The notes under the pieces are model-generated. The model searched no databases. It was not told the DNA's origin and worked only from the letters and a program-made list of their open reading frames with translations. The position numbers and the translations under genes were made by a program. 64,000 bases of DNA from Gallionellaceae bacterium (lineage in GTDB: Bacteria; Pseudomonadota; Gammaproteobacteria; Burkholderiales; Gallionellaceae), in assembly GCA_019753125.1 (NCBI GenBank), contig JAIELH010000026.1, positions 18,262-82,261 on the forward strand, in the 5' to 3' direction. Shown piece by piece: positions 18,424-20,269 of the stretch. Position 1 is the first letter of the stretch. Every line of letters begins with the position of its first letter.

Positions 18424-18921
18424 ATGAAACTTCGATATTTGTTTGCCATGTTATTTTGCCCGATGTTTGCGCAGGCGGAAATCTACAAGGCTGTCGATGC
18501 GGATGGGCACGTCACTTATTCCAGCACGCCGATCAAGGGCAGCAAGAAAATCATCCTGGAACCGCTTTCGACCACGCTTCCGCCGGGACACGCACGCTCT
18601 GCAACTTCACCGGAGGGCTTCCCGAAGGTGGATGGCGCAACCCAGAAGGGACGCGACGAGACGCGCCGCAGGATTCTGCAGGACGAATTGAGCAGTGAGG
18701 AAAAACTGCTTGAAGAAGCCAGAAAAAACCTGAAGAGTGCCGAGGAAAACCCGGAAGTATTCAAGGTGGTTGTCGGCAAGAAGCCCGATGGCTCGCCGGT
18801 TACCGAGACGCGGCGCAATGTTGCCAAGTACGATGAAAAAATAAAGCTGTTGAATGAACAGGTCGATTTGCATCAGAAAAATATTGAAGCCCTCAAGACT
18901 GAGCTGTCCAAACTCAAGTAA
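18424..18921 (+). CDS. DUF4124-type periplasmic protein
   Basis: Signal peptide, then AEIYKAVDADGHVTYSSTPIKGSKK; coiled-coil C-terminus. Confidence 0.82.
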   Translation: MKLRYLFAMLFCPMFAQAEIYKAVDADGHVTYSSTPIKGSKKIILEPLSTTLPPGHARSATSPEGFPKVDGATQKGRDETRRRILQDELSSEEKLLEEARKNLKSAEENPEVFKVVVGKKPDGSPVTETRRNVAKYDEKIKLLNEQVDLHQKNIEALKTELSKLK

Positions 18922-19187
18922 GGGCTCGTAAATGAATAACATGGGCTTACGTTGCAACGTATTCGGGATGAGTGCAAGGCGCGAAGCGCAGCGAATGGTC
19001 GTTCCATTCGCAAGCTTCGCAACACCGCAATCGCCCGAATACGCTGCAACCCTCCGGGCTGGGGTCGCTTTGGGCTCATCCCTATGTTGCGAGCCGCTTG
19101 TTGTGAATGACACAACCGCGCGTCTCGCGCCTTGGTCTGCGCCCAAAGCGACCCCAGCGTAAGCCCATGTTATTCATTTACGAGCCC
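18922..19187. mobile_element. MITE-like non-autonomous element with 30-bp perfect TIRs
   Basis: GGGCTCGTAAATGAATAACATGGGCTTACG at 18922-18951 and its exact reverse complement at 19158-19187; TAA on both sides; nested inverted repeats inside. Confidence 0.85.
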
Positions 19188-19228
19188 TAACTTCCACTCT
19201 GGCATGTTTTCTGCATTACAAGTAGAGT

Positions 19229-20269
19229 ATGCCTGATTTTCATCTTCTTGCTCTTGAACACCTCGATACGGCAGTCATCCTGCTGGATGAAGCGTCGCGT
19301 ATCGTCTACCTCAATCCGGCCGCAGAGCATCTGTTTGACATAAGCGGCAAAAATTTGTTGGGGCATCCGGTTGATCAGGCGTTCACACACGCCGAGCAAC
19401 TGTCCAGCGCGATGCGCCAGGCGATAAGCAACAACGCCAGTTATATCGAGCATGACCTGACGCTTGGCACGCATGCGCACGGCAAATTGCATCTGCGTTG
19501 TGCGGCAACGCCGCTGCAATATTCGGAACATTATTTGCTGCTGGAGTTTCATCCGATAGACCGGCCGCTGAAGCTGGCGCGCGAAGAGCAGATGCTGGAT
19601 CAGACGCAGGCCAACCGCCTGCTGCTGCGCAATCTGGCGCACGAGATAAAAAACCCGCTGGGCGGCATACGCGGCGCGGCGCAGTTGCTCGAACAGGAAC
19701 TGGAAAAACCGGCATTGCGCGAATATACCCAGGTCATCGTGCAAGAGGCAGACCGGCTGCGCTCGTTGATGGAGAAGCTGCTCAGCCCGCAAAATGCATC
19801 GCACTATAGCGCGCTCAATATCCACGAAGTCATGGAGCGGGTGCGCAGTGTGGTGCTGGCGGAAATGCCGGCGGAGCTTGAAATACAGCGCGACTACGAC
19901 ATCAGCCTGCCGGCGCTGGTCGGCGACAAGGAGCAACTGATACAGGCGATGCTCAACATCGTGCGCAACGCAGCACAAGCGATGCAGGGCAGCGGCACCA
20001 TCACGCTGCGCACCCGCATCGCGCGCCAGGTGACGCTGATCAAGCGCCGCCACCGGCTCGCGGTGATGGTGCAAATTATCGATAACGGCCCCGGCATCCC
20101 CGTGGAATTGCAGGACAAGATTTTTTATCCGCTGGTATCGGGGCGTGCCAACGGCCACGGCCTGGGGTTGACACTGGCGCAGGACTACGTCAGCCAGCAT
20201 CACGGCACGATAGAATTCGACAGCGAACCGGGGCGCACGTGTTTTACCGTGCTGCTTCCTCTTCCATAA
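19229..20269 (+). CDS. ntrB: Nitrogen regulation sensor histidine kinase NtrB
   Basis: PAS domain; NLAHEIKNPLGGIRGAAQLLE H-box; DNGPGIPVELQDKIFYPLVSGRANGHGLGL. Confidence 0.95.
   Translation: MPDFHLLALEHLDTAVILLDEASRIVYLNPAAEHLFDISGKNLLGHPVDQAFTHAEQLSSAMRQAISNNASYIEHDLTLGTHAHGKLHLRCAATPLQYSEHYLLLEFHPIDRPLKLAREEQMLDQTQANRLLLRNLAHEIKNPLGGIRGAAQLLEQELEKPALREYTQVIVQEADRLRSLMEKLLSPQNASHYSALNIHEVMERVRSVVLAEMPAELEIQRDYDISLPALVGDKEQLIQAMLNIVRNAAQAMQGSGTITLRTRIARQVTLIKRRHRLAVMVQIIDNGPGIPVELQDKIFYPLVSGRANGHGLGLTLAQDYVSQHHGTIEFDSEPGRTCFTVLLPLP

Follow-up and report, generated by a model that had tools for sequence, protein, structure and literature searches.

MITEs are commonly regarded as short-lived deletion products of insertion sequences (ISs), and the interior of most of them is a decayed IS; the interior of the family described here differs, being a conserved core. 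Reviews of bacterial MITEs describe short elements that have TIRs and give stem-loop transcripts (PMC10969869, PMC2229807). The element that we analyzed in the window (the whole 64,000-nucleotide stretch of DNA from a Gallionellaceae bacterium) resembles the type II MITEs (Chunjie, QMITE2, RUP, and similar elements) in being short, bounded by TIRs, associated with a target duplication, mostly intergenic, and free of a transposase; further points of likeness are stable stem-loop transcripts and a similarity to ISs that is confined to the TIRs (PMC10969869, PMC2229807). Unlike type II MITEs, its family has a covarying two-arm core that occurs across many TIR types and genera, and a nearly fixed length.

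Other known systems share single features with it. The CIR elements of Caulobacter also consist of two hairpin arms and a linker, but they carry a GANTC methylation motif and have no stem that closes the 5' and 3' ends (PMC2229807), whereas the arms of the window element sit on a 30-bp closing stem formed by its TIRs. IS5-family ISs (NCBIfam NF033580 transposase) have ends in common with related MITE types, and their short target sites are likewise TWA-like or CTAG-like; however, they are ∼835–945 bp long and lack the core, whereas the MITE lacks a transposase. The Correia/NEMIS elements of Neisseria are likewise short TIR elements that lie between genes and fold as RNA, but PMC2229807 gives their lengths as 107 and 155 bp, with TA ends, and describes no two-arm core. 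REP/BIME sequences are defined as high-copy palindromes of 20–40 bp (PMC3733652), and the window element, with its 266 bp, long TIRs, and low copy number, falls outside that definition. In the open-access literature, no paper contained the TIR or core strings of the window element, and no published description was found. We regard the family as a superfamily of MITEs that have a conserved junction core in common.

A filled site at the stop codon of a DUF4124 gene

An earlier note, made from the sequence of the window, had described a 266-bp MITE-like element with perfect 30-bp TIRs and two hairpin arms, P2 and P3, separated by a 9-nt linker. When the coordinates were recomputed, all of these features lay exactly where the note had placed them (Table 1), TAA was present on both sides, and the DUF4124 reading frame ended at the left TAA. 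The folding that the note had recommended gave −177.5 kcal/mol for the 266-bp element as RNA, compared with −90.8 ± 4.5 for dinucleotide shuffles (z = −19.4; 0/200), and z = −18.1 against dinucleotide shuffles for single-stranded DNA. The three-way junction was predicted in both RNA and DNA folds. P2 contains one unpaired position close to its base, and internal loops are present in both P2 and P3, which makes “near-perfect” a fair description. Only spurious open reading frames overlap the element; no credible one lies inside it and, as the note had held, there is no transposase. In Rfam 15, no family reached its gathering score, and two weak matches were far below theirs. Neither a promoter nor an intrinsic terminator, including a T-run terminator, was found within the element, and a terminator or promoter role was rejected for this reason. 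Its size (<500 bp), its TIRs, and the absence of a transposase are those of a MITE.

Table 1. Positions of the element, its parts, and the adjoining host genes in the window.
Feature	Position	Strand	Details	Evidence
Element (MITE)	18922–19187		266 bp	Coordinates exact to the base
Left target-duplication copy, TAA	18919–18921	+	Stop codon of the DUF4124 gene	Sequence check; empty site in relatives
Left TIR, GGGCTCGTAAATGAATAACATGGGCTTACG	18922–18951	+		Ends conserved among 56 type-a elements
Hairpin arm P2	18952–19049	+	Stem 18952–18967/19034–19049; apical hairpin 18991–19011	Folding, alignment
Linker between P2 and P3, CCCTCCGGG	19050–19058	+	9 nt	
Hairpin arm P3	19059–19157	+	Stem 19059–19075/19141–19157; apical hairpin 19100–19116, GTTGTG-AATGA-CACAAC	Folding, alignment, covariance model
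Right TIR	19158–19187	-	30 bp, perfect match to left TIR	
Right target-duplication copy, TAA	19188–19190	+		Sequence check; empty site in relatives
Host gene with the stop codon hit, DUF4124 protein	18424–18921	+	165 aa	
Next host gene, PAS/HisKA/HATPase histidine kinase, NtrB-like	19229–20269	+		Anchor for empty-site comparison

The element has moved. The genome from which the window was taken contains at least five copies of the window's TIR type, the others being on contigs C22, C7, C5, and C3 (the last cut by the contig end), and genomes elsewhere in its genus and family carry more copies, whose flanks are unrelated; because of these additional copies, the observation is far beyond chance. 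In relatives that carry the DUF4124–histidine kinase pair, the two genes are separated by ∼40 bp after the stop codon, with no element between them (e.g., L259, L262, L265, and L269; relatives that matched on the minus strand were left out of this comparison). The corresponding gap in the window is 308 bp, that is, 39 + 266 + 3, and the locus is therefore a filled site at which the stop codon TAA was duplicated as 3 bp, which is exactly the target duplication that the note had proposed. Wherever this could be tested, the element occurred in multiple copies with differing flanks and mostly identical TWA trinucleotides, empty sites were present, and no match to Rfam or to a paper was found. These results support the MITE reading. 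That the element is instead a structured RNA or regulatory sequence adopted by the host, and not mobile, is extremely improbable: a conserved and covarying structure would agree with this, but the sites are dispersed and variable, there are target duplications, empty sites, and a deletion series, and Rfam has no matching family. Phages and viral contigs contained no match to the element, and a phage or viral origin was rejected accordingly.

Members of the family and their putative transposase

An exact scan of a GTDB-based genome collection with the apical motif of P3 identified 73 stretches, none of them in viral contigs, and the carriers included Gallionella, Sulfuricella, Sulfurimicrobium, Sulfuriferula, Thiobacillus, and Hydrogenophilales, among others. 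From these stretches and from whole-genome searches, we compiled 92 distinct TIR-bounded elements of six TIR types, with a modal length of 266–268 bp. Type a (GGGCTCGTNAATGAATAAC), to which the window element belongs, comprised 56 elements, 36 of which were 266–267 bp long; the TIRs of types b (GARCTTGTCCGTAAATAAT), c, d, e, and g differ from these, whereas their common length is identical or almost so. The trinucleotides on the two sides were identical in 33/56 type-a and 16/19 type-b elements and were nearly all TAA/TAA or TTA/TTA (TWA); the flanks of type e are CTAG-like.

The lengths ranged from 46–57 bp, for palindromes made of TIRs only, to 365 bp, for forms with extra nested hairpins. 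The short palindromes, which consist of two TIRs alone (L220, L221, L222, L224, L225, and L211), have matching TWA flanks in several cases, and they arose by deletion or else represent the minimal form that is mobile. The nested hairpins in the arms of L228:1001–1367, L026, L029, L053, and L206 contain repeats beginning with GACACGTTACNGCG and CCCTCTCCCAAACC, and are apparently other palindromic repeats that were inserted there. Three further loci were unusual: a type-a copy in Sulfuriferula multivorans (L131:4134–4398) carries its P2 arm in inverted orientation at the usual position; the window's own genome contains a solo remnant of a type-a TIR, GGGCTCGTTAATGAATAA (L189:5001–5020, contig C14), the ATG of which resembles the start codon of the following open reading frame; and in L333 (G170, contig C3), an IS5-family IS with the ends CTAGACAGTGTCGTCACG has inserted directly against a type-a element, at its outer end.

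We also searched more widely with a covariance model, R1, that was built from one arm (P3 plus the linker). R1 matched 53 of the 369 genomes of the class sample, in 45 of 272 genera, and 38 of the 399 genomes of the phylum sample, some of which were outside the class. At the class loci, TIRs bounded the element in about 22 of 29 cases, mostly at 267–275 bp, and further TIR types were found there (AGGGCCTGTTAACACTAT, AGAGCCTGTCTGTGAATAAATC, AGAACCTATCTC, and AGAACGTGTTTACGATCTC). Among the loci fetched from the phylum search, 10/11 had elements of 266–283 bp, and L353, the only fetched locus from outside the class, had no clear TIRs at the expected distance. L353 is the single locus fetched from f247, a family outside the class in which many small (∼2 Mb) genomes have matches to the arm model. 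Named carriers were Azotobacter chroococcum, Halomonas sp. PA16-9, and a plasmid of Pseudomonas aeruginosa PA83. In a tree of 51 cores, the TIR type changed 12 times (minimum, 11; shuffled mean, 30.6), and type a formed a fully supported group. The TIR type thus tracks the phylogeny of the core, which means that core and TIRs mostly diverged together and that the family is one old MITE lineage; this tree led us to abandon, as the principal hypothesis, a scenario in which different TIRs had captured one constant core again and again. The family to which the window element belongs is large, consists of very small mobile elements, extends across Pseudomonadota, and has apparently not been described before.

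The earlier note had suggested a search for a transposase with matching TIRs, and this was answered in part: IS5-family ISs with matching ends were found for types b and g, both related to the window's type, and no IS was found with the window's exact GGGCTCGTAAATGAAT ends. In Gallionellaceae GW715_bin.18, copies of an IS at contig edges have the ends AGAACTTATCCGTAAATAA, compared with AGAACTTGTCCGTAAATAA for type-b MITEs, and near-identical C-termini on plasmids belong to annotated IS5-family transposases, in ISs of ∼932–944 bp with the same kind of ends. An 835-bp IS in the window's own genome has the ends CTAG|AGTCTGTTGACATT, and both of its open reading frames match NCBIfam NF033580 (IS5 family); the ends of type-g MITEs (GAGTCTGTTGACAATC) match those of this IS (CTAGAGTCTGTTGACATT). 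The arm covariance model had no match in the type-b-like and type-g-like ISs. Since the ends match and these ISs lack the core, an IS5-family transposase is the likely mobilizer of types b and g, and the core was not derived from those ISs. For type a, no autonomous IS was detected by an exact pattern search of 399 genomes of the order, among the IS5-family (IS5_3) matches inspected in 22 mostly type-a-bearing genomes, by a paired-TIR scan of the loci, or by a TIR BLAST search of plasmids. Solo type-a TIR matches were rejected as the ends of an autonomous partner and are mostly truncated remnants. Based on the shared core, the shared target duplication, and the resemblance of the TIRs, we infer that type a is also moved by an IS5-family transposase.

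Conservation of the core and homology of its arms

Three features extend beyond what could be seen in the window: elements with a wide variety of TIRs share the core structure across Pseudomonadota, the arms are homologous to each other in inverted orientation, and insertion at stop codons is a statistical property of the family. To describe the core, we used a structural alignment (A1) of 29 non-redundant, divergent elements of several TIR types, in which RNAalifold recovered the same three-way junction and 95.7% of cells were paired. Changes on both sides of a pair occurred at 78 of 101 pairs, compared with 39.9 ± 3.5 after shuffling, which ignores relatedness, and 31–42 when the partner was slid. 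Covariation by itself is insufficient to prove selection on the core, because the shuffles ignore relatedness and because template switching can homogenize inverted repeats. The mean identity of the internal loops was similar to that of the pairs (0.88 and 0.82, respectively, in P2; 0.82 and 0.85 in P3). Two examples of conserved internal loops that stayed unpaired are the AA bulge in GCAAGGCG and the AAC loop. Furthermore, the inner core (0.85–0.88) was better conserved than the outer stems (0.73–0.78) and the TIRs (0.77), and the C-C/G-G pairs of the linker were retained in all 29 elements. P2 aligned better with the reverse complement of P3 than with P3 itself in 23/29 elements, and R1, although built from P3, found the P2 of the window on the minus strand (68.9 bits, E = 1e-13). 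The element is built as an inverted dimer of a single hairpin, its arms being diverged inverted copies of each other.

How the core came to be conserved can be read in more than one way. The family might be an old, neutrally amplified set of plain MITEs with a passive interior, whose arms seem conserved through kinship and through template-switch (quasipalindrome) correction. The joint divergence of core and TIRs is what simple descent would give, mutation can produce compensatory changes in inverted repeats, and deleted and extended forms exist; on the other hand, correction should erase internal loops, which instead remain unpaired and roughly equal the pairs in conservation, the inner core is better kept than the outer stems and TIRs, and most full elements are 266–275 bp long in distant genera with different TIRs. 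On balance, we regard a wholly passive interior as possible but somewhat doubtful. To the same tentative degree, the core may be a selected nucleic-acid device, either a cis-acting DNA fold or a protein-binding pair of hairpins, with which a single non-autonomous, protein-less lineage would persist by following successive IS5-family transposases across Pseudomonadota.

Insertion at stop codons and a model for transposition

The positions of the insertions were analyzed by joining the flanks to reconstruct the empty site and calling genes with a home-made periodic Markov model, the calls of which are approximate. Of 86 sites, 20 lay exactly on a predicted stop codon, compared with 2.6% of the TAA/TTA trinucleotides in the same flanks (p = 6e-14). 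When only non-genic sites were considered, the values were 34% and 8% (p = 1e-8), and the enrichment persisted against TWA sites located 1–60 bp downstream of stops (20:18 vs. 49:132; Fisher p = 0.0035). Insertion at stop codons is thus strongly enriched, and both targeting by the transposase and selection fit this result. The orientation relative to the host gene was 26:16 (p = 0.16), which is not significant in a test that the near-symmetry of the element weakens. The 835-bp IS5-family IS of the own genome (L240:1427–2251, contig C1) is located directly behind the TAA stop of its host reading frame, as are the MITEs.

The strong RNA fold and the 20/86 insertions exactly on predicted stops, with more within 30 bp, might indicate that the element acts at the RNA level: read-through transcripts would adopt the junction fold and shield the upstream mRNA, process it, or terminate it, and insertions after stops would be tolerated or favored. 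Correia and ERIC elements have been reported to affect mRNA decay (PMC10969869). However, the window element has no T-run terminator, the preference in orientation is not significant even if near-symmetry blunts this comparison, and the TWA target can itself be the stop codon TAA, behind which one IS5-family IS of the own genome lies as well; we consider an RNA-level function unlikely. We favor a DNA-level role for the core, because there is no significant orientation bias, the element is near-symmetric, and it contains no terminator or promoter.

The explanation that we consider probable is that the element is a non-autonomous DNA transposon moved in trans by an IS5-family transposase, with a conserved core that is kept for a nucleic-acid reason. 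An IS5-family DDE transposase supplied in trans would recognize the 30-bp TIRs and move the 266-bp unit, duplicating a TWA trinucleotide, and TAA or TTA at or near a stop codon would be a favored, harmless site. The two arms of the core, as mutually inverted copies, would stack on the stem of paired TIRs to give a three-way junction; when one strand is exposed, for example on the lagging strand, or when the DNA is supercoiled, this fold may pair both TIRs and offer them as a single compact substrate, and this would account for a length that hardly departs from ∼268 bp. Against this explanation, no autonomous IS with type-a TIRs was present in the order and type-a-bearing genomes mentioned above, the compensatory changes of a palindrome can arise from template-switch correction without selection, and any inverted repeat brings about TIR pairing in a fold. 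In addition, the core may be dispensable for movement, because TIR-only forms of 46–57 bp with TWA flanks exist; an element without it can be present at a TWA site, although such forms may have arisen by later deletion.

One MITE lineage with a covarying core of nearly fixed length thus recurs in many genera of Pseudomonadota with many kinds of TIR. The bias toward stop codons offers a clean case in which to ask whether a transposase targets the ends of genes or whether selection spares only those insertions. Should selection act on the core, elements that depend on the transposases of others would be able to evolve their own structural parts.
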